This document shows positions 13,398 through 57,790 of a DNA stretch of 64,000 bases, in pieces (the first letter of the stretch is position 1; every line of letters starts with the position of its first letter). The translations under genes were made by a program, and so were the position numbers. This DNA is from Trichobilharzia szidati. Its lineage: Eukaryota > Platyhelminthes > Trematoda > Strigeidida > Schistosomatidae. Where the stretch lies: assembly GCA_944472155.2 (NCBI GenBank), contig OX235273.1, positions 30,105,204-30,169,203 on the forward strand, in the 5' to 3' direction. The notes under the pieces were generated by a model. That model searched no databases and had not been told where the DNA came from. It worked only from the letters and a program-made list of their open reading frames with translations.

Positions 13398-13417
13398 GAT
13401 GGGCATTTTCATTTCAG

Positions 13418-14741: not shown

Positions 14742-14776
<35 letters not shown>

Positions 14777-17116: not shown

Positions 17117-17319
<203 letters not shown>

Positions 17320-17896: not shown

Positions 17897-18049
17897 ATTA
17901 GTAAGTTGTACAGAGGATATCTATCTAAAAGTACACATTGTCCACCGTCTTCAGATCAATGATGACAGCATTTTCTTCACGCAGGAAAGCTTGTGTGAAT
18001 AATGATGTGTTCTGATTAATTAGTCAATTGATGTCTGCTGCGTTAATGC

Positions 18050-24955: not shown

Positions 24956-25309
24956 TGATTGCATCAATTTTTGACGCGTGTTTGGGTTTGCTAGAGGTTA
25001 TCAGTTTCCCTTAGGTTGCAGATATGTCTAAATCATGAGTTTTAATACGTGAGGTACATAAATCCAGGACGTTGTACCAATTGTCCTCAACCATCCGACC
25101 GATTGTAATGTTTAAGTTTACTTATTGAAACGGAATGTTTAAGTTTTCTATACTGTAGAGATAAATAATCATGTTCAAATTAGAATGGCATAAAATAATG
25201 TTTGTACTTCAATAAAGGAATTATTATGAATAGTATACACTGACTGCTTTCGAAAATAGCTTCAGTGTAGTATGAACTCTAAATAAATGCAAAATGAAAT
25301 CGTATACTT

Positions 25310-25650
25310 GGTGCGTGAAGGAAGCATTACCAACAGCTTGCTGCAGACTATCATCAATAGCTGGCTTCACTGATTTGACATCAAGGTTCAAAATGGCAGA
25401 AATGATAGGAAACACGGAACTCTCACTACAGAAGTGACTAACAAATACATATGTAGAAGCAAATGAAGATGGATTGAACCTTAAACTCTGAGGATATCGT
25501 TGATAAAAATCGAACGCCGACTGGTTGAGTGGATATCGAATGTGAAACGTTGAAGTTGACATTCGTTATAGAGATATGTGGAGGAACTCATTTGGGGAGG
25601 AACTGAAATCGTATGTGTATCCTTGCAGGCAGAAATAGAGGACTGGGGAG
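25310..25650 (+). mobile_element. RTE C-terminal fragment
   Basis: Reads NSLLQTIINSWLH (compare LQTFINSCLRS in better copies), then RWIEP and LRISLIKI matching the RWRWIGHTLRKPS region. The minus-strand open frame of 112 residues over it is an antisense shadow. A matching fragment lies at 30980-31260. Confidence 0.5.
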
Positions 25651-26486
25651 AAAGAGAAAAGCTAGGGGTGTTTTGTTGAAAAACTATGTGCCACTCAGTA
25701 CGATAGGAAATCAAAATACGAATATCGGTATAACAATAATAATAATAATAATAACAATCCAAAAGTCCATATGTTCACTGAAATAGTCTAGTAACCACAG
25801 ACGCCATGGAGCAGAAACATGACATTACTCAATCCCTAATCACTATTTAATGTATCCGTTGCAGTTATGCACGAAGCCAATCGTGATCTAAAACATCTTA
25901 GCAGTAATGTTACTGAATAAGGCATATGTTAACGTGAGTGCTAGTTCCAAATAGGACATCAGTTCCCTCATTTTAGCGAATTTGCCTTGAAGATGAGTAC
26001 CAGCAAGCACGAAACATAGATCCTGGGCGTCCTATTACGTCGAATAACTCACAGTTAATATTTATGGTCACAGAATTGAGAAAATGTGTTAGTGTTTCAG
26101 CGGTAATCGTCCAACAAAAGGTATCCTACAATCACCTGAATCGTAAGACATTAGGCACACGAAATCCATGACGAAAAACGAGAACGAACAAATGTACTTG
26201 TGAAACGGCACATGAAGAAAAAATTGACACAGGCATTTACCTACTCATGAGTAGTTCAGATAAATCGCAGACATTTTATCTACAAGGAAACGACAAATAA
26301 TAATTGTTCTCGAGGTTGAATAAATAAGAACGATGAGATTTTTAACATCGATAATATTGAGAAGAAAAAACAAGTAGTTCACCAGAGTGGCTCTTTTCAG
26401 TGAAATCATTTTCCTTAGCTGTACACTCACATTTATATAGAATTTTCCACTTAAGAGAATCGTAACTAAATTCAAGAGTGTCATAC

Positions 26487-26800
26487 TCACAGCCAGCAGC
26501 AGCAACAACGACAACACCAAGCACCAATCACAATCAACTGGGGAAATTCGGCAAAGGTTAATTCCTTCAGTTACCCAGGAAGCATCGTTTCAACCACAGG
26601 CAGTCGGCACGACGAAAATACAATAGCCAGAATCGGAATGCCAAAGGACACCTTCAAAACTCTGAAATCAGTGTGGAACTCTTCTGCACTCATTCAGCAC
26701 AGAGAACAAGATTCACATTTTCAAAACAAATATTGAATCAATCGGTCTGTCCATATCGGTTTGAAACTAGACCAGTGTGTCATGATGTGTGGCCATTTAC
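26487..26800 (+). mobile_element. RTE thumb fragment
   Basis: Contains the Gln-rich run (CAGCAGCAGCAACAACG) and then FSYPGSIVSTTGS and IARIGMPKDTFKTLKSVWN, equivalent to TYLGSIVSTTGGTDEDIKARIGKARQAF in better copies. Confidence 0.65.
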
Positions 26801-29379: not shown

Positions 29380-29880
29380 TCTTCAACAGAATTAACGTCA
29401 ATTTTCTCATTCATGCTTTGTTGCATAATAGTAATCTGTCGAAAATAAAGTGAATGATTGTTCATTGACCTTCTATAATTGTCTCATACTCAGTATCTCT
29501 TGTACTTGCAAAACATAGACTATGGTTCCGAAAATATATCTGTTTAGTGTAAATTGTCATCATGTAGTAAGGTAGATGACACTTACCACTTGACTAGTTC
29601 CTACTGGAGCAGAGGAATCTCGCGCATCCTAATCTTTCCAGTACATTCTACATAAAATAGTGTGGCTGTTTTTGGAAATGAATCCTATATTCCTTTGTAG
29701 CTGAACTGAAATATTCCAATATTGATACTTCATAACCTCGTTTGCTTCAACCAAAATAAGACAGGCGATAATACCATATACATTTCGTGTGTTATCAATT
29801 GTATTTCACTAGAGGGTAAATAAGAACATCAAATTAATGATAATTAAAATATGATCAGAACAAAAAACGTCTACTTATTC
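29380..29880. repeat. Second copy of 23.6-24.6-kb sequence
   Basis: ATTAACGTCA, AAGTGAATGATTGTTC, GAATCCTATATTCCTT and TATTTCACTAGA blocks occur in the same order as in 23620-24610. Further downstream, 30640-31130 matches 24940-25440. The pair suggests an old duplication of about 1.8 kb, about 5.8 kb apart, later broken by insertions. Confidence 0.5.
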
Positions 29881-30059
29881 ACTCATATACCACGAACACC
29901 TGCTAAACAATCATGTTAACAAGGTTAATAATATCTGAAATGAATCTGAAAGAATTCTGCTGATAAACCAGCCAACAACCTAGTACGCAACAAATACGTT
30001 GAAGGAAATTGATGTAGACTTCATGTATATTGATGAAAAATTGAGGCAACAACACACAC

Positions 30060-30260
30060 CAGGACCTCGAATCTAATCCAAAAGAAAGAAACGATGAGTT
30101 GAGTATCTGAAGATGACATGGAGATCAACTGAAAAGGAAATAAAAGCGTATGGGCAGTCGTGGGGACAACGAAATATTGTGCTGGAAAGGTCGCATGGAA
30201 GATTATCACACCTGCATTCCAATTCCCTATTAGTTGTCTTCAGAGAAGTAAACACTCATC
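30060..30260 (+). mobile_element. RTE C-terminal scrap
   Basis: Reads WRSTEKEIKAYGQSWGQRN, matching EEEMKTCGQTWSQVKTLAGNR in the 32.7-kb copy. Confidence 0.4.
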
Positions 30261-30979
30261 GCAGTAGAACGAAATGAGATAATCGTAAGGAAGAACAAGT
30301 TAGTGCTTTTATAATTTTCTCATTTTGGCGAAATATTTGGATTTTTTGTTTTAGTGTAAAGAAATAAGTGGTGATATTAGTAGACAAGGTCATTGACAAC
30401 ATGATTCCCACGTTGTTCAGGATTCTGAAACTAGTAGGAAGTGTCCGCAGATATGCATATGCAGGTTACCACTTTCCCTTCATGCTTCCAACATGGACGA
30501 AAATGCGAAATTTACAAAAAAATTCTTGGCAACTTCCGATGGATTGTGATGAACAATGAAGTCAAGGCATCAATATGCTCCTGCAGCAAATAACTGGCCA
30601 AAAGGATACTTCACGGTAGTGTTTTTCACCGCGTATATGCATTCAATAGGGTAGATCAGTTTCTCTGAGGTTGCAAATATTGTCTAATGAAGAGGAGTGA
30701 TGTCTGTGTTACAAAGAGCAGGATATTAAGTCAACTGCCTTCAGTCACCCAACTCATTGTTGTATTTAAGTCATCCTGATAAGATGCGATTCATCTCTAA
30801 TAATTAATTTTTTCTACACTGAAGAGATGAATAATCACGTTCAAACTAAAAATAGCATAAAATGATGGTTTTAATTCTGTTTAGGAATTACGAAGGAAGC
30901 TTTCATTGACAATTCGTGAAAGTTGTTCTACTTGGCTACCGTACTCTGAATAAACGCAAAGTAACTCATAGACTTGATC

Positions 30980-31260
30980 AGTGACAAAAGGCATCTGCAA
31001 CAGTCTCCTGCAGACTTTCATCAACACCTGCCTTTCTCTGTGTCGATTCTGAAATTCAGATGGGCTGAACGGATAAGTAACACGGAATTCTGAATACATG
31101 ACAATGAATAAGCGGTTACTCAACAAATACTGAGAATCAAATGGACATGGACTGAATGTACGATGCTAGGAGCGTTATGCGATATTGTGCATCAGGCCCT
31201 AGACTGGAAATCGAATGATAAACGACTAGTTGTGTTTTTTCCTTCTAAGTTGACATGAAG
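30980..31260 (+). mobile_element. RTE C-terminal fragment
   Basis: Reads CNSLLQTFINTCLS and continues with a worn C-terminal part, parallel to 25310-25650. The antisense 81-residue frame is not a gene. Confidence 0.45.
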
Positions 31261-32646
31261 GAAATTAAACCATATCGGTTAATGATACTTCAAATTCTGA
31301 AGCCTGGCAGTGTTTCTGAACTCAGCATTTATTTTATTATCCTTCCGAATCATACAACACTGAGCATACAACTTTATGACTAGGACCGAAAGGGAAGAAA
31401 TTTATCCAACCTCCAAGTGGCTGTGGATTTTATCAGAACGTAGAAATCCTTATGGCTGTAAAATTGCGTGTGATATAGTTCAGGGAAGCTATTTTCGGAG
31501 AATTTATTTTCTATATCTATGCAATGTAATTTAGATCGTATTTTCAACAGAAGAGGATAGTAACAGAATTGATGAAATCTCATAATCACAAACTGGCAGA
31601 GGCTTGAATTCACGAGCCATTGCTCTTGAATTCGTGCCAGAATGGTCTGCAAGCTTGCCTCAGAATTTAGAGGTACTGTAATCGAGACCGATGGTTCTGT
31701 AATGCCAAGGACCGCCAAACTAGGAAAAAAATTATGATAATATTTCAGTGATAATTTTTCTGTTTTGGTAATATTTCTAACAAAATGTCCATGATTGGAC
31801 CAGCTGTTGGAGTTGTTTTGTTTTTATTTCACACATGATGACCTTTAGTTTGGCGTTTATGTTCATTCACTCTGATTTTGAGTGATATTGACGTTTGACC
31901 CACGTATTTAGTGGGCACAGGATATTTTGTAAATTACATTATTTTTATGCATTTTTATTGCACCTTTTAGTTAATTTATTTTGATTTCTCATTAGATGCG
32001 TTGGTTTGAACGTGTACGAATCCCAGTATTTCTGAGATTTCTTCGAATCGCCTCGGATGTACCAGATTCTTCTTCATATTATATATGAAAAATTCTTTTG
32101 GGTAATTGGTATCGAGTGACATTTTGAATGAGGAAATTATTCCTTTTCTTTGGTCATCTAGTGTTATTGTAAGTCTGCGTATTCTGTCCGCAAGATTTCC
32201 CTTTTCTGTTAATAGATGAGCTGAGTAATAATCAAGGAGTCACCCAGAATATGTAGTTTTTTCTATATAGCGTCGTTTCGATGATGCCATCTGTTACTCT
32301 TCGTACTTTGCAGTCTTACATAGGCAGTTCCCCAATTTCATTCTCTATTTCCATGGTTGATTTTATTGAGTCATATGACTGTTAATGTGTGGCAAGAATT
32401 TCTCAAAAACATTATTTTCCTTTATAACTAACGTGTCGTCTTTATATGTCCACCAACATTTTATTGATGACCTGAATGGTTTAAGTGCGTTCTCTTACCG
32501 AAATTCCATGAATATATCAGCTACTATTGGTAAGATGACTGCTCCTTCATTTGTTGGAATATTTTTCCTTCAAATGTAAAATATGTTGTAGTTACACAGA
32601 ATTCACTGACTTCCATCATCTCTTCTACTGATAATTGTGTCCCGTC

Positions 32647-32656
32647 TTTCAGGTCA
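32647..32656. repeat. Target-site duplication, left (10 bp)
   Basis: TTTCAGGTCA directly before the first base of the RTE insertion. The identical 10-mer is found at 33717-33726. Confidence 0.85.
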
Positions 32657-33716
32657 GGGGTGCCACCGACAATAATACATCTCATCCAACAGCTATACGA
32701 CAATGCTGCATGCCAAGTAATCCACAGTGGGAAACTTACGGAACCCTTCGAAGTGAGGACAGGAGTAAGACAAGGCTGCCTACTATCGCCAATGATTTTC
32801 TTGATTGCAGTAGACTGGATAATGCGACAAACAGTGGGCAATGAGGAAACAGGCATAAAATGGACTCACACAAAAAACTTGGAGGATTTGGACTTCGCCG
32901 ATGATATATGTCTGATTTCCCACAAACTGGAAGATATGCAAGCGAAAAGCAACAAGTTGGCAGAAGAAGCATCAAAGATAGGACTTCAGGTGAACACAGA
33001 TAAAAAAGAGGTGATGAAAATTCCTGGACAAGAACAACAACAACAGACAACAATCAGCATAAATGGGAGAAACCTGAAAGAAACTACCTCCTTTACCTAC
33101 CTGGGAAGCATCGTTTCAACTACAGCCAGATGGAACTGACGAGGATATCAAAGCGAGAATTGGAAAAGCAAGACAAGCTTTCACTACTCTCAAGTCTGTG
33201 TGGCGGTCAACAGCACTACTCAGAATCAAAAATAAGATCCGGATTTTCAACTCCAATGTGAAGTCAGTCAGTGCTACTATACGGATCAGAGACTTGCACT
33301 GTGCGTCATAAAGAGCATATCAAACAAACTACAGACCTTCATAAACAGCTGCCTTCACTCAATACTCAAGATCAGATGGCCAGAAATGATCAGCAACAGG
33401 GATCTTTGGGAGCGAACCAACACAGCAGGAACCGATTGTGAAACAAATAGGCAGGAGGAAGTGGAGATGGATTGGACATACTCTTAGTAAACCAGCAAGT
33501 GACATCACTAGACAAGCCCTCGAGTGGAACCCGAAAGTGAAGCGGCGAGTTGGTCGTCCAAGGGTGACTTGGAGGAGGTCATGTGAAGAGGAGATGAAAA
33601 CGTGTGGACAAACTTGGAGCCAGGTGAAGACTCTAGCAGGGAACAGAACGCAATGGAGACGCACGGCTGAAGCCCTATGTTCCTGTAGGAATTAAAGGAT
33701 ACAATAATAATAATAA
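32657..33716 (+). mobile_element. RTE/SR2-like retrotransposon, 5' truncated, 1060 bp
   Basis: Starts abruptly inside the palm (PPTIIHLIQQLYDNAACQV) and keeps VRTGVRQGCLLSPMIFLI, the catalytic DLDFADDICLIS and the thumb (TYLGSIVST). After a frameshift at about 33130 it keeps the C-terminal part to a (TAA)n tail. It is the least decayed copy in the window, with one 159-residue frame (32660-33139). It is flanked by a perfect 10-bp target-site duplication and sits inside a Penelope-like element, so it is younger than that element. 5' truncation is normal for target-primed insertion. Confidence 0.92.
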
Positions 33717-34310: not shown

Positions 34311-37300
34311 TGAATTTCGTTTGAAAGAAATTCACAACTCCATTTAGCTCTCTTCTCCAGTAAAATATGCATAGAGTTGCTTGATTTAAGTTTCGACGAT
34401 AGTGAACTTGACAAGGAGAGCAGGTAAAACACAAAACAATTTCAGCTGAGACGCTCAAATCAATGAAGCAGAGATGCACGTTTGCCAATAAACATCACTG
34501 ACTCGTATTCCCCATGGCGAAAAATATCATTAAGACAAATAAATTAATGTTTGAAATTATATTATGTTGAACAGGATCATATGAGAGTAAACTCAAAAAA
34601 ACATTTAATTATTCACTGGATAATTTAAACATGCAATGACAATGACAGTTAGTAGTTAGTTCAAAACAGAAAGTCATGACGTAGCACGAAGTTAGGTGAA
34701 CAACTGTTACTCAGAAAGAGAGTACAAATTTAATGTTTCAGATAAATTAAAATATGTCAGTTTGGATTAATTATCAGTTCGGCTGGCAAAATAGTTGTAG
34801 TTCCAGAAGACTTCTCCTCAGCAATCTGAAAAACACAAAATTCCATTTGATTGAACTTCTGTCTTTTAATTTCAAAATGATTTTATTTTATAAAATTTCA
34901 AGTTTGCCTAATATGATGTTTCAGATGGAAGGAGTAAATAAAATACAAGTCAGTATGATAAATGTCTTGCATTATCACTATTAAGGTTGAGAAATGTTAA
35001 AGTATTGTGATGACCACCTGACATCTTATTATAATATTATGTATTAAAAACCTTATTTGTGAACGGTGTAGCTAAAATTAATAAATTTTTAATCAACCTA
35101 CCATATTAGATTCTTCAATCATCGCGGCAGGTTATTTCTGGAAATAGAGAAAAGATTGTTGTTTTTACAGTACGTTTCTTTACAAGAAAGTTTGACAACT
35201 CTGGAACAGATACAAAACTACTTGGTAAAGATATTCCGAGCACTCAATAAAAACCTACTATAATTTGCTCACAAAAGTTCTTGGTTTTTTATTTGTTACT
35301 TTTTCATAATGGAATAATACTAGTGGTATACCGCCCTGACACGTAAATGTATATTTAGTTTCACTCCAGGGAAACGGTTTGGAATAGGCAGTTTGATTTG
35401 TTTGATAGCGGTAGTTTCTGGAAAGTGAAATAACCGGGGTGTTTTTCGTATGAGGATTATTTTGAAGGTTTGACAATTTGGTAACTTTGCTTTGCAAAAG
35501 TGAGTTTTGTTAAAACATTTCAGTGTAATCACTGTATTCAGAAACAGTGTGAATAATCTCTCACTACTCTGGTAACTAGATACCTGTTTTTGTTTCTGCG
35601 TTTATTTCTACGTCATAAATGTTATTTGATTTCATTGAAATATGAGCTGAATTCATCACTAATGTTCCAGTTCACTTATTTGTTTTTTATGTAGTAGTTT
35701 TATTTTGAATTGCCATATCTTCTCACTCTCACTTTCTACTATCAACCTTTTCATCGAATTTTGTATTAATAAATTCTGGTTGTTAGATCGTTAAGTATTT
35801 TGTATTCATATCTCTTATTATTGAGCAGAAATAATCTTTGAGTAGTGCAAGATGCTTGCATTTATAGTAGCGTATACCTTCTTTAGGTGGTTAACAGTTG
35901 AAGAAAAGCCATGAATTACAAGATTGTCTAGATCGTGCAAATATATTTATTCTTGTTTTGTGCCAATTCAATTAACCAGAACAGCTTCGCCCATATTTAA
36001 ACATTATGGATAATAAGTAACATTCAGAATTTCCGTTTATGGCTTTTTATTCATGATAATTTTTTGTGTATTTTATTGTTTAAGTGAATTTATTGGCTTC
36101 AACCAAGCGGTCTGGAGTTTTCTTATCTACAGCTGTACGTATAACTATGAGCTTCAGATCAGAGCACACTGGTATTATTCTTCCGATTCTGGAGAGAATT
36201 TTGCTGGTTTCACCGAATTAGTGTCATATTTATCACTTCGTATAACCTTTATGCACCATATGTGTTTCAACTTCATCAACACTGGCCTTTTCAGTTTGAC
36301 TGGTTACTAATTGTCTTCAAGTTAAGTATTTCTGGTTTCATACCCATCACTTCGTAGTTTAGTTGTTTTATTTTATTTCACTTGAGCTTACTTCTATCGT
36401 TGCTAGTCATGTCATTCGCTTTGTTCCATCAAATATTAGTGAGGAATTGTTTCTTCTCACAGTACGATTTACAAATTAATATGGAACTGAATCCTACCAT
36501 GGCGTGAGAGTGTTATATAAGTATGAATAACTATGATGTACGTGTCCCATTGAAAAGATGAAGAAGATAAAACGTTCTTCTGAATGGAACTTACGTTTGT
36601 CATCGGGAAGGTAAATGGTTTCTAAAATTCGACAAATTTTGAATCATTAAGAGAAATGTTTTGCAGAATAACTTAAAATCATTCAGTGGTCTAAGTTCTA
36701 AAATGACAGACTCAGTGGGAAAAATGTGTTTGCGCTCTACACTTCAAAGTGTCTGACCATAGATTTACTTATTCATTCAATTTATACGGAAATAAAAAAG
36801 CAATGGCGGTTTAATTAAAATACACAAAACAACGGGATTAACAAAGGTGATGGAAGCACTATGAATTAATCAAATGCACCCATAATTATGCTTTGTGAAA
36901 ACAATGAAATTTAACCTTTGCCTACCCTAACCTAATTGATCTACTGAAATACAGCTCTAGCTGTTCCTTAAATTAGGCCTGCATTGTTAGTGCACGACAA
37001 TATTGTCATGAGACTTAGCATACTACAGTAATCCTTTTCTTAGTATATTAATATGAATTTGTCACTTACTATCCTCTTAAATTTCGTATACCTTATTATT
37101 TTGTTTATTTTATTTGATACCGCACTCGACCATTTCCATTTAAATTATGTCTACAAGTAAATGTGTGATCAAATGTTTATAAAAATATTGTACAATTTTT
37201 CATTTTTCCAATAAAGCCCTTCATTAAATAATACTACTCAAATCTACTGAAGTTTCAAATTGGTTTTAGACTTAGCACTAGTGAAAAAATACTGTCAAGC

Positions 37301-37854
37301 GAACATCCCACTGTCTACAACAAATTTATGTGCATAATCCACCTCTGTTTCAATCTTCCTCTTATACGTTTCCACAGGAAAAATATGCAGGGTCACTTTA
37401 TCGGAGCATGAGTTATGGCTTGACGATGTTGAACAATTTCGACATGCATATTCTGACGATTGACAGATCCGATCTGTTATTCATGTTAGTCTTCATAGAC
37501 TTCAGGTTAAGAATTTTTCCGGTCCTACTCCAAAATGTCAACTCTGGTAGTTTCCGTCTAACGAAAGATATACAGAGAAAACACAAAAGCGATACGATAA
37601 ATTACGCATACGCTCAAAGTAGATATCGTCTTTAAACTCATTCTGGTACTTGTACCGATTCGCAAAAACAGTACGACGCATAGAAATGTGCTTACTTATC
37701 TTTGGACCTTGTTTTTTATAAAGTTACATGCTTTAGTCACAAAGTGAGCGTCATAAACAAATAGACAAAATAACGGAAATAACATTGTTTAGTTTCAAAG
37801 GCTGTTAACTTTTACTAAATGAACGCAAACAAATAAAGGTTCACTATCTTTCTT
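34311..37854. other. Intergenic, nothing assigned
   Basis: AT-rich. The 101-residue frame at 37330-37635 overlaps sequence duplicated at about 45090-45180 and has no motif. No gene is supported. Confidence 0.4.
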
Positions 37855-38000: not shown

Positions 38001-38999
38001 GAGCATACAATAATCGAAAATCTTCTACAAGTAAGGGAAAGAGATGCGACGTAGAATGTGAGCCTGATGGCTGACGGACGTTTTTGAGCTGTCAACTGCA
38101 TAATTTGATCACTCTTATTCACCATGAAATTTGTCTTCTTAAATGCCCTGTTCAAATTTATCAAAGAGATTTATCTTTTTAACCTATTAATGTGTATACA
38201 GAAATAATTCTTTTTATGTGATGGTATATGACCACAGTTAAGTTCATTGAGTTGCATTGGTTTAAACATAGAATTTCCAGGAGACAGTTTCCTCATGTGA
38301 TCAAACAAAGAAGCACAAGTGCGCAGTGGACATAAATAGAAAATTTGACTTATTGAAGCCACTTATTTGTGTAATGGGAACAGTTTTTGCTTGGAAGTGA
38401 ACATCAGCTTGTTAAGTGAACTATGGTGATGTGGAGTTACACTAACCACACTATACTGAACGGTGCGTAAACTCTAAAATAGATCTATCCAAAGTGTGAT
38501 TACTTGACGAGACCTTTGCTTAAATTTCCATCATGTGGATGGCAGAGATAACTACACTTGCCAAGAAGGATTGCGATAGCATAAGAATGGAATCAGATGC
38601 ACTGTATTTGAAACACAATCTCTCGTCGACTAAATGCAAGTTGAAAAGGCAGAGGTTTCGGTGTGAACCAGGAATATTGTCAGAGTTATGTCACATTTCT
38701 TCATATTCTTGTAAATGAATACTGCAGATAACTTTTCCATATGTTGCATAAAATAAGTTCACACATAATTGCCTCTACGTATGTTGACAATAATTTTCTT
38801 GAAGTGGTTCGTTACGTATGCATATCACATGACCAATTATACACAACAGTAGATTTAAATATTTAAACGCACCCGTGACTTCTGAATTGATGCGACAAAA
38901 AAGGCGATAAAATAAGAGTAGAAATGAGTTGAAAAAGAAAGAAGGATAAAACCAAAATATTATTCAAAGATACAGAGAGAACTGGGAAGTATCACTGAT
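38001..38999. other. Intergenic, partly duplicated
   Basis: The part just after the RTE scrap (37930-38150) is colinear with 43390-43560. Nothing coding recognised. Confidence 0.35.
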
Positions 39000-39760
39000 A
39001 CAATTGCACTGCAAAATGAAATCGTTCTTTTAACAAGTAAACGGATTACTCCACACAAATTATCCTGCATCAAAACAAGCCTTGAGGAATTAATGAGCAG
39101 TTATCCCGTCAAATTCTCAGGTCATCTCATTCAAGTGACAGATATGTTTGCCTTGACATATGAAGGCTACTTGAACAAACACTGGTGAGTTAATCGGTGG
39201 TGCAAAGCGTGCATCTAAGAAGAAACACTTATTTGATGGTTTGATCCTTTCAGAGGCTCTACAATTCGTTCTTCTGTAACAAAAGATGCTGTTGAAATTT
39301 TTTACTTTATAAACGGTATATTACAACGTATAACTGTGAACAGTATTCGAGAAACACTGTGAGTGAAACTGTCTCTGAGAAGTGAACGTCGACTTGAAAT
39401 CATTCTGATGGTTACATGAACTGTGATGAACAAACTACAACATATTACGAGATGAATATGAATTGAAAAACAGAACTATTTGAGTCGTGACTAGATGATA
39501 AAAACTCCACTTAAATTTGCATCACAGACGATTAAGGCGAGTTCATCCGTAAATAAGGATTATGAGAGTATTTACTGAGAATGAAAACATTTCGCCTATA
39601 TAAAAATGGAGTGTCATACATTGTGTTAACAACACAACCTCTGTTTCACCAAATGTGAGGTAACCAGAATAAAGGTTCTGTGTACACCTGGGAAGTTGTC
39701 AGATTTATGTCGAATTTCACCATAAACACCCTATTAACTGACTATTGTTGAATAATTTTC
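39000..39760 (+). repeat. Segmental repeat block A
   Basis: First of four related blocks. Landmark TATAAACGGTATATTACAAC at 39308, followed by GTGAACAGTATTCGAGAAAC. Closest to block B (45470-46230). Confidence 0.75.
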
Positions 39761-39839
39761 AGTGTGATACATAATTATTCCACACATGATTCTATGTATG
39801 GTATATTGAGAGGATTGACCAATTCAAAAGGTTCTTGAA

Positions 39840-40135
39840 TCGACCATCCCCTCCAACTCGTCCTGAAATACCAACAACAGACAATGGACATCATTCCTTC
39901 AACAAAAGCTGGAATCTTGATTGCAATCATGCTACTGAAAGCCAACTGGAAAAGCAGAAGAACAAGACTAAACCCTTCCTACATCAATGAAAAAGAGGCC
40001 ACAGACCACAGAGGATATGCTGACGCCATCATTGTAAAGAGTTTGGGAAGAAAGAATGGTACCTACTGGTTGGAAGAAAGAATACCTTGTTAAACTACCA
40101 AAGTAAGCCGACTCAGCTCTTGTCTTGATGATCTG
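39840..40135 (+). mobile_element. RTE fragment attached to block A
   Basis: Reads RPSPPTRPEIPTTDNGH, then a worn ILIAIMLLKANWKS, equivalent to EILKAIKMLKAGKAAGPDG. It lies at the same offset from the landmark as the fragments after blocks B and C. Confidence 0.6.
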
Positions 40136-43100
40136 AAATGATTACGACAGGAAATGCCTGTTCTGTCGATGTATGTTTGTTTTCATTCAGAAATCCATTC
40201 CGTCACTTCAACTAGTCGTCAAAGACGTGAGATATATAATGTATTCCACATTTTTTATTAGTTCACTAGATTTTTTTTAGATGTTATTTTACCAGTTTAG
40301 TTCTGGCTTAGCGAGGTAATATCAACTTTGATATTTTCTGACTAGCGAAAGTTGAACAGGGAAAATATGATAACAGCCGGAAATGGCATTCTCTAGTTCC
40401 AAAGGTTTTCACACTGTACTAGATGAATGAAAGTGAATGAAGTTTTGATATGTGTATTTATTCCTGTTTTGTCATCTGCATTCATCATTCTGACTAATTT
40501 ATTCATAAGGTGACTTCTGACTGGTCATATGCTCTATTATATTTCTGAAGATTTATCAATAGTCTTTGCATCGTGTAATTTATCAGCTGCAAATAACTCA
40601 AGTAAGCCTTCATATAGTTTGAAACGTGTCGATGTACCCTCAGCTATACATCAAGATGGTTCAACAGTATTGCTGGGGACTGAGAAGGACCAGTGCACAC
40701 TTCACTTTTTGTTAGTTATCTTAGTGATTCAAACTGGATAGATAAACGTGAAATTAGAGATGTAAAACAAAAGGCACGAGATCAAATAAGTCATATACAG
40801 CTTATAATATTGGAAACGAAACACATGAGCTAAAGCAGTTTATTTGAATTGAACACTCCAACCGGACTAAGTAACAACATTTACCACTAGAATTTCAACT
40901 ACGCGTCAGTCAGTGGATGTGATCACATCACGGATTTTCCGGAAAGAAAAATGCAATGGCCTGTACTTCGATTTAACAACCCAGTAGTTTTTACAGATGT
41001 CAATTTTAGTGACTGAAAGGTGAACTCATACTAACATGAAATCGCAAGTCATGCATGTGAGTACATCATTTTACAGCAAACATCAAAATAGGGGTGACAC
41101 AATTAAGTTTGAGTGTTACGGTGTGCATTCCCACATGAACCTACTGCAGTTCATTTGTCCCTTTTTATTTACAACTTCACTACTTCTAAATGATACAGCT
41201 GATTACTGATATTAGCACTGAGTGATTGGACAACCTGATTAGTTACACGGCTGCTTCGTAAATTATAAAAGTGTGAATTAGTCACCTCTTTGTTTGGCGG
41301 TTGCGGAGACGTTAACTCATTAACTAACTATTGGTATCAGTGCTAGCGGTGGATGCCCGGTGCGCTCTTGGTAATATCACTGAGTCACTCGTTCTACGAA
41401 TTGCTGGATGATTTAATGCTTAGAAGTCATAAACATAATAAACCATTAGAAATTGTCAGTTGAAGAAATACGTACCGAGAAAATATTTCTTCCTTATTCT
41501 TTCCTGCTGTTCTGTCTGAATGTGCGTATGTTAACTTTATATTTTGCACTATAACTGAGATGCGTGTAATTAATCCAAAGCATTTCCATCGCATTTATTA
41601 ACCCCATTGTTTTGTATATTTTACTTTACCTATCTTGTTTCTCACCTTCATTTGATTTCTATTGACAAGTAGATATGTGTTGAGATAATTCCTACTGTAT
41701 TTTTCTTATTATCTCTTAATAAATTCATGTTTTAAGATATGATAAGATCTCTAATTTTTAAGGTTATTCTACAAATATTTTCTTATTTTATGTGATGTAC
41801 AGTTAATTTCAGATTTTCCTGTGAAAATCCCTGAATATTAGGCATGGATTTCAGCAGGTGGATGAAACAAAATTTAGGCAGACGTCATCTAAATTTAGAA
41901 ATGAAGTCTGAAGGACAGAGAATCGTGGAGTAAAACAGATGTAGGCACACGGAAAAATCCATCATAATCAAGTTGAAAGTATCCGAATAAGCTGAAGACA
42001 GACCACACTTAAGATTCAACAACCAGGAGAATCTGCAAATGTCACAATCATTGTAGGTACCGTGGAATAGTTAGAAAATTTAAGGAACATTATTGGGGAG
42101 ACCTGCTTCGAAGCATACTGGGACACTCCGGAAGTGAAATTGAGGGAAACCTGTAAAGCCCTTCCAGATGAGAAAGACAACACAAGACAGGGGATGATTC
42201 TCAATAGAAACGCGAAGCCATTTGTGTTGAGTGTGATAATGCATCAGAAGAGGACACAGTGCAAAGAAAAACAATGAAAGGAGATGTTGAGTCTAATGTG
42301 TAATGTACAAAGTAAAAAGGTGAAAAAGAATGCTTTTAAAGATAGAAAATTCTCCGACACCGTGGCAGTGACAGCAGAACACGCTGCTTTTTGGGGGGCT
42401 CAGGACGCCTAATCAGAGAAACACAAAACTATCCGAGGAGAGATCAGCACGCATAAAACCTCGAACGCTTATTCTTTTCATGATTTTGAATGAATTTAGA
42501 ACAGCAGTTTGTGCAGAATAACATAGTATCATCATTTATTTCGTCGGCTCCAAATCAGCAGCGTACAGAAATGATCGATTTGGAGCACAAAGCAATTTTG
42601 ATAACACCTACAAATTTTGCATGATGTATATTGATAGCAGACATCAAAATTGATAAGCACTTCCCAGAAAGAATGCTCATACAGCCACTACAGAGAAAGC
42701 TCAAGTCTAAACGAAAACAAATGCTTGAATATTGTGGTGAATGGGCTGCGTAATAAAGACAAGGGTGAATAAGATGATTAGTAACTACTAAGTGAGTAAA
42801 GATTTGATGAGTTCAATTCAAACTATAGAAACAAGAGACAAAGTAAAACCACGCCAAAGCGAACCAAGGGGGGCTATAAACAAAGACTAAGTGGTTAAAT
42901 GAAAGACAAAGTGGAAACATTGAATTATTACCAGGGCAAGGATGGACTGATATCTGCTTCTTTTCGAACACGTTGATAGGATTTCAGACCTTTGACTGAG
43001 ATTTCGTTGGTAAACTTGAGAAGAATCGCACTATTTTATCCATTGATCATTTTGAAGGACTTCATTAAGTTCACTTCGCCACTCGTATCAACAAGATGTC

Positions 43101-43938: not shown

Positions 43939-43965
43939 CTTGATCAATCTTCCCTGTCGAAGCAC
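43939..43965 (-). CDS. Micro-exon, 27 nt (ASTGKIDQ)
   Basis: Acceptor TTTTTGAATGTAG, donor CAAG|GTAAGCCGATTTG. The flanking intron resembles that of the 46991-47017 exon (GTAAGC..ATTTGTGGA). Confidence 0.65.
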
Positions 43966-46900
43966 CTACATTCAAAAACATGCTCTGACTACTTTAAATG
44001 ACTCTTGAATAGATCTTCACCTGCGACTCATCTAGACTCATCTAGACCCTCGACAGACATCGAGGAATGAAGGGAGTGACTACGAATTTGTATTATTATT
44101 AGTAGTTTCCATCGATGAAAATTCTCGTATGCTCAACAGGAAGAAGCTCAGATTTGTTACTTTTGATAATAATTATTTGAATTCATTTATCGAGATATTT
44201 TGTGGTGAAAAAATATTTAGGAGAAAAGGTGAATTCCGTTGACTGTCATTTTAATTGTGTACAGTGCAAACATAAACTGTCTAATACACGTTGCTCAATA
44301 ATTTGTGAGTTTATGGAACACACAACAGAATATTTTGAGATGGCAAGAAGTGTAATTATGTGGGATGTTAATTCATCCGGTGTCATATATTATCCACTCT
44401 CGTGGGATTTTCGATAATGTGACAAAATGAACTCTCTCATACTAACCACACAGGTGCTGATGTTTCCATGAAGCTTCATTTAAGCGGCTAGAAATCATGT
44501 AAGTCACTAATATTGGTGTTTACTACTTGATGACTGACCTATGGTTCACGCAAAGAGATGAATAGTAAATGTCTTATACGATCAAACTTACTTGTTGCGG
44601 CGGGATCTGTATTGGTGAGTGAATCTGAAAAAAAATATTTTCTTTTGTTATCTGTCATGCACCATTTATTGGAGAAAGCTGTAATAGCAAAATTATTTGC
44701 ATAATATGACAGCTTTTCTCAGTACATTTCTTTGTTATTAGTGGAACGAAATATCTGTTTCTCAGTCGCTATACTTTGTTAACACTTGATTGTGATCATT
44801 TGATATGATATTCAGAAGCATTCTCAACTTATCATATATCAGTTTGAAATATGTTATGGCGTAACTGCTGCACATTTTTCACTCGTGAAAATTTACCAGT
44901 ATTGTAGCGAATGGAGGAATGATTTAGATCAGTTGAGTAAATCTGACTTGCAATCATTCCGAGATCCATTTCGTTATTCTTATTGGTCATCCCAGACGTG
45001 AGATTCCCAATGTATTCCACAATGCTCCAATAACATCAACTTTAATATTTTCGAGCTAGCCGAAGTAGTACGAGGACAACATGATAATGATACAATCAAT
45101 TATGCATACACTCAAGTTAGATGTTGTCTCTTAAGTCATTTCCGTATTTGCCGCTTTAAAAAAACAGTATGGTATCAAGAGGCTGACTTACCTGTGTCAC
45201 CATTCGATGAATGGGAGCCTTAATGTTTAAGCAAAATACCATGTTTTACTTTCAACCATGAAATCCACTTGACAAGCGATAAGCAAATAGCAGATAGAGA
45301 GGGGAATGGCATTCTCTGGTTCCAAAGGCTTTCATATTGTACTAGATGAATAAAAGCGGATGAAGTCTTGACATGTGCATTTATTCCTGTTGTCATCTGC
45401 ATTCATCATTTTGACTAATTTATTCATAAGGTGATTTCTGACTGGTAGCATGCTCTATTATGATAGCATTGCATTGCAAAATGAAATCGTTCCTCTTAAA
45501 AGTAAACGAATTTTTTCATACGACATAAAAATTATCCTGCTTCAAAAACAAGCATTAAGGAATTAATGAGCGATTCTCCCATCAAATCCTATGGTCGTGT
45601 TAGTCAAGTCATAGATATTCTTGCCTCGAAAAATTTAGCTGATGGTGAGTTGATTGGTGGCGAAAAGTGGGTATCTAGGAATAAGCCCTTGTTTGACGGT
45701 TTAAAGCTATTTGAGGCTGTAAACATTTTACTCTTTTTTGACAAAATAGAATGTTCCAACAATTTACTTTATAAACGGTATATTACAACGTATAACTGTG
45801 AACAGTATTCGAGAAACACTGTGGGTGAAACTGTCTATGAGAAGTGAACATCAGCCTGATGTAATTCTAGTGGTTACTTGAACTGTGATGAACAAACTAC
45901 AACATATGAATTGAAAAACAGAACTATTTAGATCGTGAATTCATGATAGAAACTCTACTTAAATTTGCATCTCATAAACGATTAAGGCAAGTTCACTTGC
46001 TACGAAGGATCATGACAGTATTTACTGAGAATGAAATACTTTAAGTCTACATAAAAATGGAGTAAAATAAATTGTGTTAACCACACAATCTCTTTTGCCA
46101 AATGTAAGCTAACCAGAAAAACGTTTTGTGTTAACCCGGGAAGTTGTCCAGTTTATGTCAAGTTTCCCAATAAACACCCTATTAACTGACTATTGTTGAA
46201 TAATTTTCAATATCCGACATAATCGGTCGACTTTGATGTGGTTGTGTTCTCTGAGCTTGATAGTTAATTTGACATATGAATGTGTCAGAGTATATTAAGA
46301 GGAGGCGCTGGGCTGATCAATTCAAAGGATCCTTGAATCGACCAACCCCTTCAACTCGTCGAGAAATACGACAAACAGCCAGTGGACACCATCCCTCCAA
46401 CAAGAGCATAAATCCTGAATGTAATCAAGCTACTGAAAGCAAGTCGTAAAGGCAGCAGAACAAGATGAAATCCTAACTGAAGCACTGAAAAAGAGGCCAT
46501 AGACTACTGTGGATATGAGAGAAAGGTACCTACTGATTGAAAAAGAGTTTACCTCGTTAAACTACCAGAGTAAGGTGACTCAGCTCCTGTCTTGATGATG
46601 TTGAATGCAGTACCAACTTTGAAGTAATTTGGTGACTGCTTCATCACTATGAACGTATTACCATCCATATGAGATAAATCCTTGATTTGATGAATTTGTA
46701 TGATTTTATTATTTGAATCTGGAAGGAATATTTAATTGAACTAATTGTTATGATGTATACGGTATTTGATTCAATTGTCCAACAGCCATCATTCACAAAG
46801 TACCACTGTGTACTTTTTCAGTTGGTGGGCCAATTTACAGCTATTTCATAATCTGTAGGTTCATATTATAATTCTGAAAAAAGATGTTTCTGCTTCGAGA

Positions 46901-48423
46901 AAGCAGGATCAACATTGTTCAGTGAGCGAAGTGATATCTCACGGAAAGTAAGCTCGATCACTGCAACCAACCGTCCACAAATATGCTTACCTTGTGTACT
47001 CTCTTCTTCCGAATGACCTGCATTTATCGAAAAGACATGATTCACTTTCAAAGGAAAATATCCATGGAAATTTACCAAATCAAAAATAAACGCAAATTAG
47101 GTTGTACAATTCCTACAATCATTACACTTTTTCCAAAACAGTTTTAGATTTTAGGCATTGCAGAATACTTGAAGCATACACTTAAGCCTATTGATCCAGC
47201 TATGCGTGCTCACTTGAAATGAGTGGATCGTGTGTAGTTGTGGCTACTCCACAGAATCATACAACAAATAATTTGGATAATTCAAAGATCTCCGAAAGAA
47301 ACCAAAGCTTACTACGCGCTGTGCAAACATCATACTGCAGTCTTGTGACACAAAGAAACGCCCATCCCTTGATAGATTTTGAAAACTGAAAGTAGTGATT
47401 GTCATCTTGTAATATTCCGAGTAGCTTCCGTCGATGTCAAACATTTTATATTCCTTTTGAGAAGCAGCTGGAAATGTTACCTACTGATGATAATACTTCA
47501 ATTATCGAGCGATTTTGAGGTGAAAGATATCCACAAGTCAGTTGATTATCATCTCAATTGTGTGTGGTTCAAGCGTGAAGTTTGTAAAACACTTTTCTGA
47601 ATAATGTGTGAGTTAATATACACTTTCGAAAGAATCGAAAGTGCCTTGTTGGATGTTGTGAAGTGTAATTATGTGGGATAACAATTCATCCGATGACATA
47701 TGCTGAACACTTCCACGGAACTTCTGAGAATGTGGCAATACCAGTCCTCACTTACTAACTGTGCAGGTAGTGATGTTTCCATGATGCTCCAACAAGATAG
47801 TCATCAAGATTTTAGTCACTCATGTTACTGTTCACTACTTGACGACTGATGTATCGTTTTTACACAAAGGAATCAATAGTGGATATCTTGTGTTATCAAA
47901 CTTACTTGCTGGAGTTGAAGTTGTTGTGGTGCCTTAATTTCAAATGAAATATTTCCTGAGGTTATCTGTCAAATATCGTTTATTGAAGATAACTATAATA
48001 ATACAATTATTTGCATACTATGTAAGATTTATGCAGTGCATTTCCTTATTTCTGTTTCACAATCCCCGTACAATACAACCACTCAGGCATTACATATGTG
48101 GTTAAAAGTTCGAATTCGCAATCAAGTATGTGGTTGTTTACTCCTGAAGGCTCAGTTATAACTTCAGTTTCAAACGACCACCTTAATGTTAATATTGATA
48201 ACAGCACAAGTGGTTGGGTATTTATAACCTCCTGAGTCATCTGACAGTTTAAACCATGAAATTGACCCACAACAAAGAGCATTACTATCTACAGTCTAAT
48301 CATGATTATTATTATTATTCCTGTTTACTACCTGACCACTGATGAATCGTTTACACAAAAGACCGAATATTGAATATCTTGAGTGATCAAACTCACTTGT
48401 TGTTGTGGGAGCAAGTGTGGTGG
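43939..48423 (-). CDS. Micro-exon gene (MEG-like), central repeat exons; ends not identified
   Basis: Six minus-strand micro-exons between good splice sites: 48423-48397, 47932-47906, 47017-46991, 45218-45192, 44624-44592 and 43965-43939 (27, 27, 27, 27, 33 and 27 nt). Every exon is a multiple of three, starts with the last two bases of a codon and ends with the first base, and has no stop in that phase. Any exon can therefore be skipped without frame loss. The peptides are TTLAPTTT, TTTTSTPA, HSEEESTQ, SHSSNGDT, SLTNTDPAAT and ASTGKIDQ, joined by S, S, G, D and S at the junctions. The product is a Thr/Ser-rich, probably O-glycosylated secreted segment. Symmetrical micro-exons are known for schistosome MEG proteins, which vary by exon skipping. 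I cannot name the MEG family. The signal-peptide exon and the last exon were not found. Old RTE relics lie in the introns. Confidence 0.65.
44592..44624 (-). CDS. Micro-exon, 33 nt (SLTNTDPAAT)
   Basis: Strong acceptor with an all-T tract (ATTTTTTTTCAG) and donor CAA|GTAAGTTTGAT. An internal AG (after CAATACAG) could give a 15-nt alternative in the same phase. The donor side is shared with the 47906 and 48397 exons. Confidence 0.7.
45192..45218 (-). CDS. Micro-exon, 27 nt (SHSSNGDT)
   Basis: Acceptor TTTAAACATTAAG, donor ACAG|GTAAGTCAGCC. Same phase as the others. Confidence 0.6.
45470..46230 (+). repeat. Segmental repeat block B
   Basis: Landmark TATAAACGGTATATTACAAC at 45770, 6462 bases after that of block A. 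The 93-residue plus-strand frame at 45566-45847 is not kept in the other blocks and is rejected as a gene. Confidence 0.75.
46310..46610 (+). mobile_element. RTE fragment attached to block B
   Basis: Reads FKGSLNRPTPSTRREI, then a worn NVIKLLKAS and a stop-ridden continuation colinear with the fragment after block A, including a CGACTCAGCTCCTGTCTTGA-like end in both. Confidence 0.6.
46991..47017 (-). CDS. Micro-exon, 27 nt (HSEEESTQ)
   Basis: Acceptor TCGATAAATGCAG, donor CAAG|GTAAGCATATTTG. Acidic in contrast to the Thr-rich exons. Confidence 0.65.
47906..47932 (-). CDS. Micro-exon, 27 nt (TTTTSTPA)
   Basis: Acceptor CATTTGAAATTAAG, donor CAA|GTAAGTTTGAT. Paralogous to the 48397 exon, with similar introns on both sides. 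Confidence 0.7.
48397..48423 (-). CDS. Micro-exon, 27 nt (TTLAPTTT)
   Basis: Acceptor TTTTATTTGGAATTCAG, donor CAA|GTGAGTTTGAT. This is the most 5' of the six recognised exons. Confidence 0.7.
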
Positions 48424-51589: not shown

Positions 51590-52350
51590 CGCGTTGTGGA
51601 ATATAATGTGCGCTTAAGCATAAACGGACTACTTCATAGGGCACAACAGGTTTCCTGTATGAGAATAAGCATAAAAGAAATAATTTGCGGTTTTCTAGCC
51701 ATTTCCTCAAGTTGTTACAGTCTGATCATAGATTTGCTTTCCTCGAAAAATGAAGCTGATGGATTCGAAAACCGGTGAGTTAATTGATAGTGAATAGTGC
51801 GCATCTAGGAGGAAGAAAATATCTGATGCTTTCAAGGCTCTAAAATTGGTGTTCCTGTGTGGCAAAATATAATTGTCGAATTACTTACATCATAAACGAC
51901 ATATTATAACGTGTAATTATAAAAAGTATTCGACAAGATCTGTGAGTAAAACTGTTTCTGAGAAGTGAAAGGCAACTCGAAGTCATTCCAGTGGTTATTT
52001 GGAATGTGAAAAACAAACTAAAATATATGGACAGGGACATGAGTTGATGATCAGAACTATTTAAATCGTGATAATATGAGAGAAACTGCTGAAATTCGCA
52101 TCACATTGACGATCAGGGCGAATTAACTTCCTAAGAAGGATTATGACAGTACTTATTGTTAACGAAATATTTTTCAGGTTTATAAAATTATGGAACACAA
52201 CACATTGTGTTCGAAACAAAATCCCTGGTTGTCCAAATGCAAGCTGACCTAGTAAGGATGGTTTTGTAGGAACCTCGGGTGTTGTCTGATTTATGTCAAG
52301 TTTTGTCATAAATACCTGTGTAAATTACTGTTGTTGATAAATTCTCCATG
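51590..52350 (+). repeat. Segmental repeat block C
   Basis: Landmark ATAAACGACATATTATAAC at 51892, 6122 bases after block B. More diverged than A and B. The hydrophobic minus-strand frame 51303-51569 in its flank lacks an ATG and is not conserved in block D. Confidence 0.7.
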
Positions 52351-52424
52351 TGATACATAATCATCCACAATGATTGTCTCTGGTAGAAGTGAAAGGAGAC
52401 AACAGGCACTTGAATCTAGCATAC

Positions 52425-52775
52425 CCTTCAACTCGTTCAGAAATACCACCACAACATTATTCCAACAGAAGTGGAAATCTTGAATATAATCAAGCTACTG
52501 AAAGCCACCAGAGTAGGTGTAACTCCTACTGTAGCACTGGAAAAGGGACCACAGACCAATGCAGATATCCTGACTCCAAGTTATATACCAAGGCGCCTCA
52601 TCTTGGAGACAATACAAGATGAACTTGATGCAGAACACCACCCAGAACAAGCTGGATTTAGGAAATGCACATCATGTGCCGATCAAATTACATCTCTAAT
52701 AATCGTCATTAAACAAAGCATACAGTCAAACCTCTATCTCAGCTACATCGACTTTGCGCTTTTCGATTAGTGCGC
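52425..52775 (+). mobile_element. RTE fragment attached to block C
   Basis: Reads EILNIIKLLKATRVGVTP and LILETIQDELDAEHHPEQAG, then FRKCTSCADQITSLIIVIKQ and NLYLSYIDFA, i.e. finger to palm of an RTE reverse transcriptase with an internal deletion. It lies at the same place as the fragments after blocks A and B. Confidence 0.75.
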
Positions 52776-53164: not shown

Positions 53165-56070
53165 TTTATATAACAGCCCCCTTTTCAGGAGTGAGGCTAG
53201 CAACCACACTGTGTGAAAAAAGCTGCTACGGAAAATTCAGTACGATAAGTCTCTTCGTTACAAAAGAAAAAGTCTGTATGGGGACACGGAACGCCGGCAA
53301 CATGTATGAGACTGTCAGAGCTGCCCAGATCGCAAACGAGATGATAAGGTATGATATTAAGGTACTGAGAATATATGAAAGCAGATGGAATGGGAGTGGG
53401 CTGACAAAATTTTCAAAAAGAGAGTCAGTGATCTACTCCTGTCACTACCACGAGCACACATACGCAATGAGTGGCTACCATGATGTCACCAACGGCAACG
53501 AAGGCTCTGATACAATAGGGGCAGTCTCACTCAGGTTAATGACCTCCAGATTCAACTCCAAAGGAAGGAAAGCGTCAGTTATACAATGCTATGCTCCCAC
53601 AAACAACGCAAACCTCGAAAAGAAAGAAGAGTTCTACATGCAACTACAAGCAACAATGGACAATATTGTAGTTGGTGACATTGAAATACTAATGGGAGAC
53701 ATGAACATCAAACTGGGACCACACAACACCATATGGAGGAACTGAAATTCAAATTGACTTCATCTCAATGCAGCTCAAGGATGTGGAGACGCAGCTTACT
53801 GGAAACAAAAGCAAGAAGAGGAGCAGACTTTGGTTCATACCACCATCTCGTACAAGGAACACTGCAAATCAAATTAAAAACTTCCAAAGAAACAGAAGCC
53901 ATAGATAGATCACAAGCAAAGTTCAGTGCTGAAAAACTGGAGGATCACGATACAAAGGAAATCTTCACCGCAATCCTGAGGAAAAAGTTGGAGACACAAG
54001 TCAATGCTGGAGAAGAGCTTAGAGTTGAAAAGCACTGTAACAGTAGTGTGGAGTCAAACCTGCATGGAAATTCTAGGCAGAAAGAAGAGACAGGACAAAC
54101 AGTGACTCACTACAGATATATAGAGGGAGAAGGATGGTGAAACGAAAGGTTGTCAAGTGCATTGACGAGCAACAAAAACAGGATTTGAATGCGAGCTAAA
54201 ATACATTCAACAAAAGAGTAAAAAAGAGTGCCAAGGAAGACAAAAGACACTATCATGAAACTATGGCAAGTGAAGTAGAACAAACTTCATGCAAAGGAGA
54301 CCTCGCAACACTCTGCGAAAAAGCTAGGTTCTTATCGGGGTGAAGTTCAACATAAAGTCAGTGAATGATGACATTGGAAAGTAAATCGCCAATGAGGTGG
54401 AGCAAAAAGAACACTGGGGTGAACACTTCAGAAGATTTCTCAATCGACCGCCACCTACAGCGCGCCCAATAATACCAAAATTGGAAGCAGAATCACCAGT
54501 GGACATCAACCCTCCGACGAGAACAGAAATCCTAAAGGCAATCAAGATGCTAAAAGCTGTAAAAGCTGCAGGACCAGACGGAATCCCAGCAGAAGCACTG
54601 AAAATAGACCCAGAGATATCAGTCGACTCGATGACACCATTACTGGAGAAGGTTTAATAAGAAGGCAGGGTACCTGCTGATTGTAAGAAAGGCTACCTAT
54701 TCAAACTGTCAAATAGAGGAGAATTAGGTCAATGCTAGAACTGGCGTGGAATTATACTCCTGTCCATCCCAAGCAAAATACTAAGCTGCATCATTCTGGA
54801 GAGAATCGAATACGCTCTAGATGAAAAACTTCGACGGGAACAGGCTGGATTCAGGAGCAACAAGTCATGCTTCGATCAAATCGCAACACTACTAATCATC
54901 ATTCAACAGAGCTTGGAATGGCAGTCAACTCTCTATCTCAACTGTATTGATTTTGAAAAAGTCCTCGACAGCGTTGATCGAGAGGTGATTTGGCAGCACC
55001 TCATCAAACAGTTGTACGATAATGCTGCATACCAAGTAATCCACAACGGAGAACTCATGAAATCCTTCGAAGTGAAGACGGGAGTCAGACAAGCAGGCTG
55101 CCTACTATCTCCAGTGATTTTCCTGATTGTGGTAGACTGGATAGTGCGACAGACAGCGGCGGGCAACGAGGAGACAGGCATAAAATGGATCCACACAAAA
55201 AACTTGGAGGATCTGGAATTCGACGATGATATATGTCTGATTTCCCACAAGCTGGAAGATGTGCAAGTGAATAGCAACAAGCTGGCAGGAGAAGCATCCA
55301 GAGAAGATAGGAAGGACTTCAGGTGAACATAGAGAAAACAGAGGTGATATAGACTCCTGACAAACAGCAACAGCAATAACAACTACAGACAACAATCAGT
55401 GTAAATGGGAGAAATCTGAAAGAAGCGACCTCCTTCACCTGCCTGGGAAGCATCGTTTCAACTCAAGACGGAACAGACGAGGATATCAAAGCAGCGAGTA
55501 TCGGGAAAGCAAGGCGATCCTTCATTTTTCTCAAGACTCTGTGGAGGTCAGCAGTACACAGCGTGGAAAACAAGATCAGTATTTTCAACTCTAGTGTGGA
55601 GTCAGTGCTAATATACTGACCAGAGACTTGGTGCGTTAAAAAAGGACACTTCGGACTAGCTACAGAAATCCATCAACAGCTGTCTTCGCCCAATTCTACT
55701 CAAGATCATATGCGGGCCAAAAAATATCAGCAATAGGGATCTCTAGGAGCGAACCAACCAACCCAGAAGGAAGAAACTGTGCAACAAATATGCAGGAAGA
55801 AATGGAGGTGAATCGGCCATACCCTGAGAAAACCATCAAGTTAGTGACATCACACGCCAGGCCATCGCTCTGGTTGGAGCTGAATGGGAAGCGGCGAGTC
55901 GGTCGTTTATAGGAAGGTGACATGAAGGAGGTAATATGACGAGGAGATGTAAGCATGTGGGCAGACGTGGTGCCAGGTGAAAATGTTCGCAGAGAACCGA
56001 AGGCAATGGAGACGTGCAGCTGAAGCCCAATGTTCCTGTAGGAACTAAAGGAAACAATAATTAGCACAAT
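53165..56070 (+). mobile_element. RTE/SR2-like retrotransposon, near full length, broken
   Basis: The only copy here with the N-terminal APE-type endonuclease (53191-53745). It shows GTRNAGNMYETV, VLRIYESRW (catalytic Glu region), VIQCYAPTNN and MGDMNIKLG (Asp/Asn motif). A linker frame follows at 53733-54140. Reverse transcriptase pieces are at 54397-54657 (KAIKMLKAVKAAGPDGI) and 54913-55326 (LYLNCIDFEKVLDSVDRE, GVRQAGCLLSP). The catalytic box reads LEFDDDICLIS, FDDD in place of FADD. The thumb (GSIVST) and C-terminal part follow, to an AGGAACTAAAGGAAACAATA tail. Several stops and frameshifts, plus a one-residue insertion in the RQGCLLSP motif, make it inactive. Confidence 0.88.
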
Positions 56071-57260: not shown

Positions 57261-57479
57261 TTACTGTATACTGAGAATAACTCTTAACTCTCTTTTCATC
57301 TTTCTGAAGTTATTTGTTATGCATGTGAACTGTGTGACATATTATGTGCCAGAGAAGATTTAAAATTTTAAATAAACTGCCGCCTTTCAAATGTATTCAA
57401 AGTATGATAACAAAATAATAAGCATATGCGCAGTTCAAAATGTGAAATATACTTAGAAAAATGAATTACTTCTGGTTAT

Positions 57480-57790
57480 GGGATAAAATGTGTCCTTAAA
57501 CATGAGCCGGATTACTTCATACTGCATAACAGTTATCCTGTATGAGATTAAGCGTAAGGGAAATAGTGTGCAGCTTCCTGGTCATGTTCTCATCTCCTCT
57601 TATTCTAGTAATATATATGCTTTACTCTCGAAATGAAGGTGATGGTTTCAAAGCCTGATAAATTGATAGGTAGTGTGCATCTAGGAATAAGCAATTATTT
57701 GGTTGTTTGCTTCTCTCAGTGGTTATCGAATCTGATGAAAAATATTTTTCAAATTATTTACTTTATAAACGGCATATTGCCGCGTGTATC
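57480..57790 (+). repeat. Segmental repeat block D (partial)
   Basis: Landmark TATAAACGGCATATTGCCGC at 57764, 5872 bases after block C. Homology ends soon after the landmark, so the RTE relic is not present. Confidence 0.65.

Follow-up and report, generated by a model that had tools for sequence, protein, structure and literature searches.

Micro-exon genes (MEGs) are thought to yield protein variants by omitting tiny symmetrical exons. Antigen 10-3, or MEG-4.1 (Sm10.3), of Schistosoma mansoni is reported to have 27-bp exons and 81-bp repeats (PMC4015677), with three exons to a repeat and a Thr-rich repeat region (PMC4015677, PMC3723592). MEG-8, -14, -15 and others are described with a Thr/Ser/Pro-rich disordered centre, mostly symmetrical micro-exons and predicted O-glycosylation (PMC4671649), and the MEG-26 genes with a tandem internal duplication in which a pattern of exon lengths is repeated (PMC5825161). 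The SmPoMuc-type polymorphic mucins, which are larval proteins that face the snail, are likewise reported to carry a 27-bp repeat exon within a tandem genomic repeat and to give a mucin-like product (PMC2576457). Automatic annotation is reported to have difficulty with MEGs (PMC10526429, PMC3723592). In Trichobilharzia regenti, relatives of MEG-4 and MEG-8/9 have been reported (PMC5825161), and MEG transcripts were detected both in T. szidati (10) and in T. regenti (4) (PMC6362228). Here we describe a 64-kb stretch of DNA (the window, numbered from its first letter) whose minus strand, judging from its sequence, probably carries the central repetitive part of a working MEG-type gene of a schistosomatid fluke. 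This is probably a new gene of the known MEG class, an assignment that ends at class level; because MEG transcripts have been detected in both Trichobilharzia species, the gene may have been recorded already as a transcript.

The initial annotation of the window had pointed to six minus-strand spans of 27 or 33 nt, 168 nt in all, and these are indeed present, with AG before each. It had also given every span a GTRAGT donor, which is correct for E1, E2, E4 and E5 (GTGAGT or GTAAGT) but not for E3 and E6, where the donor is GTAAGC. The acceptors of E1-E6 are CAG, AAG or TAG, with modest pyrimidine tracts. These spans and two further candidates are as follows, with residues given for phase 1:

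48397-48423, minus strand: E1, class A micro-exon of 27 nt; AG before, GTGAGT after; paralogue of E2 and E5, flanking introns included; residues TTLAPTTT
47906-47932, minus strand: E2, class A micro-exon of 27 nt; AAG before, GTAAGT after; paralogue of E1 and E5; residues TTTTSTPA
47214-47243, minus strand: E2b, Thr-rich candidate micro-exon of 30 nt; TAG before, GTGAGC after, phase 1 open; residues TTTHDPLIS
46991-47017, minus strand: E3, class B micro-exon of 27 nt; CAG before, GTAAGC after; paralogue of E6; residues HSEEESTQ
45192-45218, minus strand: E4, class C micro-exon of 27 nt; AAG before, GTAAGT after; paralogue of E7; residues SHSSNGDT
44592-44624, minus strand: E5, class A micro-exon of 33 nt, with its acceptor 6 nt further out; CAG before, GTAAGT after; paralogue of E1 and E2; residues SLTNTDPAAT
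43939-43965, minus strand: E6, class B micro-exon of 27 nt; TAG before, GTAAGC after; paralogue of E3; residues ASTGKIDQ
37696-37707, minus strand: E7, candidate class C micro-exon of 12 nt; AG and GTAAGC align with those of E4; open in phases 1 and 2 only

By these coordinates the introns from E1 to E6 measure 464-1772 nt and the E6-E7 intron 6.2 kb. E2b has no paralogue, and the evidence for it is weaker than for the other spans.

The spans are paralogues that were copied together with their introns and fall into three classes: A (E1, E2, E5), which is Thr-rich, B (E3, E6), acidic or mixed, and C (E4, E7), Ser-rich or short. Identity in the aligned blocks is 70-77% in class A and 64% in class B. 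The surroundings of E4 are 64% identical to a relative at 37465-37838, in which the 12-nt E7 lies between the aligned acceptor and donor, and they have a third relative from which the exon-holding stretch is missing:

40153-40540, minus strand: third relative of the E4 neighbourhood; its pieces 40540-40374, 40374-40317 and 40250-40153 match the class C profile on both sides of the exon

On the minus strand the order is A (E1), A (E2), the candidate E2b, B (E3), C (E4), A (E5), B (E6), a lost C and C (E7). E2-E3-E4 is the only complete 81-nt A-B-C set (3 x 27 nt), and the set after it consists of 33 + 27 nt plus a C that is either lost or 12 nt long. A profile search of the window for more A, B or C exons gave none beyond E7.

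Donors at the exon borders are conserved between copies. In nine aligned blocks the exon-border GTRAG is kept in all five paralogue pairs (four of them independent; 10/10 when counted from both sides), whereas none of the six other GTRAG motifs in the same blocks is kept (Fisher 0.002; 0.005 with the four independent pairs). The copies have diverged by 23-36%, and the donors and the open phase 1 are nonetheless retained. When ten block alignments were examined for open phase-1 spans that are conserved, these proved to be the exons themselves or sub-spans nested in E3; the test is small, with only four candidate spans that are neither exons nor nested in E3. In a control duplication, compared in two pieces between 23.6 and 31.6 kb, 0/6 donor-like motifs were kept, the motif here being looser than GTRAG. 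This control duplication (23592-26491 and 29367-31590) is old and unrelated to the array, has a spacing of about 5-6 kb and is 64-70% identical in pieces. A donor test on paralogous introns is able to support such exons without RNA.

The composition of the encoded pieces points the same way. Read in phase 1, the six exons encode 50 residues, of which 27 are Ser, Thr or Pro; the corresponding share is 18% in phase 0 and 20% in phase 2. In 16 open spans located elsewhere on the minus strand, some of which overlap, it averages 17% and does not exceed 33%. Both strands were also scanned, under relaxed settings, for open spans that contain Thr and are rich in Ser/Thr/Pro. Of the six matches four are E1, E2, E2b and E5, all inside 3.8 kb; the filter was chosen after the exons had been seen, and E3, E4 and E6 fail it.

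The initial annotation had stressed that no stop occurs in the shared phase. Phase 1 is indeed open in all six spans, but the argument is weak, phase 0 being open in all six as well, and open reading alone therefore cannot fix the frame. Phase 2 is closed by E4 and E6 and phase 0 by E7, so that phase 1 is the only one open throughout E1-E7, which is valid only if E7 is an exon. The accompanying estimates of chance (7 percent and 1 in 700) ignore the free choice of acceptor near any donor. We counted strong donors, defined as GTRAG[TC], that have a span of 24-36 nt open in phase 1. Such a span is found at 7/9 strong donors of the region (the six and the candidate E2b), and outside the region at 15/78 on the minus strand (Fisher 0.0007 for the region against the rest of this strand) and at 11/70 on the plus strand; the largest count in order-1 Markov sequences of the region's length (n = 2000) was 4. 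Two observations weaken the count as support for a gene. The region's other phases score too, with 7/9 donors in phase 0 and 5/9 in phase 2, and the plus strand itself has a run of 7 in 4.5 kb, largely in simple-sequence DNA; the longest run in simulated 64-kb pairs (n = 300) was 5. Because phase 0 is open too and plus-strand simple repeats also give seven, span counting by itself is suggestive, not decisive, and the weight therefore rests on the paralogue test and the composition tests.

One may ask whether AG...GTRAG spans were simply drawn by chance from AT-rich, tandemly duplicated intergenic DNA. Acceptors are common, their conservation shows no excess, and the open phase 0 and the plus-strand run of seven also speak for such a view. 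It is nevertheless very unlikely in view of the donor conservation between copies, the Ser/Thr/Pro composition and clustering of the spans, and the simulated regions, which never exceed four.

A number of results weigh against a working MEG-type gene, and some of them concern the array itself. Acceptors are kept in 6/10 cases, compared with a background of 274/493, and in the pairs that involve E5 the acceptor is displaced by six bases. The exons are as diverged as the introns (16-17/27 positions alike, with E5 represented by its last 27 nt only, versus 64-77% in the blocks). Among the codon differences, 22/23 change the residue, versus 83% expected without selection (P 0.05), although in these counts the pairs among E1, E2 and E5 overlap and the codons are too few for a test of synonymous versus non-synonymous change. 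Neither the codon differences nor the likeness of exons and introns reveals purifying selection on the protein. The array has lost one C copy and contains a single complete 81-nt set. The exon divergence is in keeping with a rapid evolution of MEG products, for some of which a dN/dS above 1 has been reported (PMC4350168), or with an absence of constraint on the protein.

Other results of this kind concern the gene ends and the searches for homologues. No convincing signal-peptide exon was found in the 64-kb window, where one scan returned 14 candidates on the minus strand versus 11 on the plus strand, and a stricter scan 3 versus 1. No terminal exon was found in a search limited to MEG-4, MEG-8 and MEG-9 peptides in the window. 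The signal-peptide exon may lie beyond the 64 kb or be split, and the exon of the MEG-4.1 hydrophobic C-terminal region may be outside the window. The initial annotation had called for a search of the joined peptide against MEG proteins. None of nine published MEG-4, MEG-8 and MEG-9 peptides matched the window above shuffles. The nearest to significance was the MEG-4.1 repeat peptide, equalled by 10/100 shuffles, and its best match lies away from the array, on the plus strand at 18095; for the two 15-residue C-terminal peptides of MEG-4, 71 and 50 of 100 shuffles scored at least as high as the best match in the window. Searches of protein databases, which need shared 5-residue words and in which candidate length is limited, returned no protein with these pieces, and solved structures gave no match. 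The claim that the gene is hidden from annotation fits this absence of a database match, but the absence is no proof, given the limits of the searches. The MEG architecture originally proposed thus stands in part: the symmetrical micro-exons open in one phase, the Thr/Ser/Pro-rich pieces, the long introns and the kept donors are there, but the scans of the window gave no convincing MEG end exons.

These points could also be explained by a decayed MEG, whose array was functional at duplication and whose gene ends or expression have been lost since. The unrecognised first and last exons, the deleted C copy, exon peptides as diverged as the introns and the lack of an annotated protein would all suit this explanation. 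We consider it improbable, though not negligible, as the donors in 5/5 pairs and the open phase 1 in E1-E7 have outlasted a divergence that other GTRAG motifs have not.

What the sequence of the locus shows is a set of symmetrical exons that were duplicated, have kept their donors and share one open phase. If the locus is part of a working MEG-type gene, splicing in phase 1 would produce a Thr/Ser/Pro-rich, disordered and probably O-glycosylated stretch, presumably flanked by a signal-peptide exon and a terminal exon. Because all the exons have lengths divisible by three and share a phase, the frame would survive the loss or gain of any of them; skipping or adding exons would thus yield variants, differing in length and sequence, of a protein that is secreted or exposed at the surface. 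By analogy we infer the splicing, exon skipping, secretion and O-glycosylation in this scheme. The source is probably a bird schistosome close to Trichobilharzia, and RNA of intramammalian stages may therefore be the wrong material.

More tentatively, one may speculate that bird schistosomes have a MEG family of their own, absent from annotation. According to this speculation, an exon cassette of classes A, B and C was copied along with its introns, the A-B pair twice and, over about 19 kb, the intron block that follows B four times or more, while exons gain, shrink or vanish in three-base steps around fixed donors, as in a frozen splice frame. This intron block is the following:

45302-46607, no strand assigned: duplicated block within the E3-E4 intron, found by self-comparison; its end resembles a piece of a reverse-transcriptase retrotransposon

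Its relatives in the self-comparison lie at 38996-40540, 51613-52507 and 57451-57778. Relative to 45302-46607, the copy at 38996-40540 has its halves in swapped order, with both junctions near 45461, as if one copy had been cut out of a longer tandem array. A plus-strand gene in the block (open reading frame (ORF) 45506-45844) was considered and rejected as a chance ORF; it has no Pfam match, and stops or frame-breaking indels interrupt its copies.

Further spans lie downstream of E7 on the minus strand. Those at 36595-36621 and 36392-36418 are 27 nt long, open in phase 1 and followed by GTAAGT and GTAAGC; they have an ordinary composition (25% Ser/Thr/Pro each) and no recognised paralogue, and are possible further exons. 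The spans 35102-35137 and 34757-34825 have good splice borders; translated jointly by eye, they give a small 29-residue ORF that begins with ATG and ends with TGA, and that would introduce a stop if it followed the micro-exons in phase 1. They are perhaps a separate small gene or a product of chance, and the ORF gave no match as part of the protein-database query.

Elsewhere in the window there are related retrotransposon pieces at 5693-7356, 32657-33711 and 54410-56061, which are 78-90% identical. RVT_1 scores above the Pfam cut-off in the ORFs 32534-33136 and 54739-55323 and below it in 5689-6261. Among the best 120 of 196 matches of ORF 54739-55323, a reverse-transcriptase ORF, many of them without a name, the closest is a protein of Trichobilharzia szidati, at 77% over 94% of the query; T. 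regenti matches reach 66% over 83% and 78% over 52%, Heterobilharzia up to 64%, and the named Schistosoma matches 41-54%. On these matches we base, with moderate confidence, the view that the source is a bird schistosome. The window also contains a large inverted repeat (13393-14921 and 16972-18644, 93% identical over 1.4 kb) and, with it, a simple tandem tract near 17.0-17.3 kb that reads on the plus strand as a long LAGW repeat.

How, then, does the locus compare with the known systems? A polymorphic mucin of the SmPoMuc type shares with it the 27-bp exon in a tandem genomic repeat and, if our reading of the pieces is correct, a mucin-like product. SmPoMuc repeats, however, are reported to be about 1 kb long and over 93% identical (PMC2576457), whereas the blocks here are 64-77% identical and of several sizes. 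The conserved further exons and the intronic hammerhead ribozyme described for SmPoMuc (PMC2576457) were not seen in the window: 21 published SmPoMuc primers matched it no better than one shuffle of each, and no Rfam family, the hammerhead included, reached its gathering score. We therefore regard a mucin of this type as barely credible. Genes of the MEG class have short symmetrical exons of about 6-36 bp that follow one another and make up most of the coding region, together with a 5' exon that encodes a signal peptide and a longer 3' terminal exon. E1-E7 form such a series of short exons, in a stretch where no gene ends were found: E1-E6 have 27 or 33 nt and E7 has 12 nt, all multiples of three, with phase 1 open and donors conserved. 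Within the class, the MEG-26 product is reported to be an amphipathic helix (PMC5825161), whereas the pieces here are Thr/Ser/Pro-rich. No terminal peptide of MEG-8 or MEG-9 was detected in the window, nor were family-defining flanking exons identified there.

The closest published layout is that of antigen 10-3/MEG-4.1, which the array recalls in its 27-nt exons, its three-exon set and its Thr-rich pieces. It differs in having one complete 81-nt set and in its exon classes, which are not near-identical but diverged; neither the repeat peptide nor the N- and C-terminal peptides of MEG-4 were found in the window, and another genus is likely. It is possible that the array belongs to a MEG-4 orthologue. 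The locus offers old exon duplications in which the evolution of exons, introns and splice sites can be compared, and a 10-3-like array of 27-nt exons in a bird schistosome, if true, would suggest that this layout predates the genus Schistosoma.

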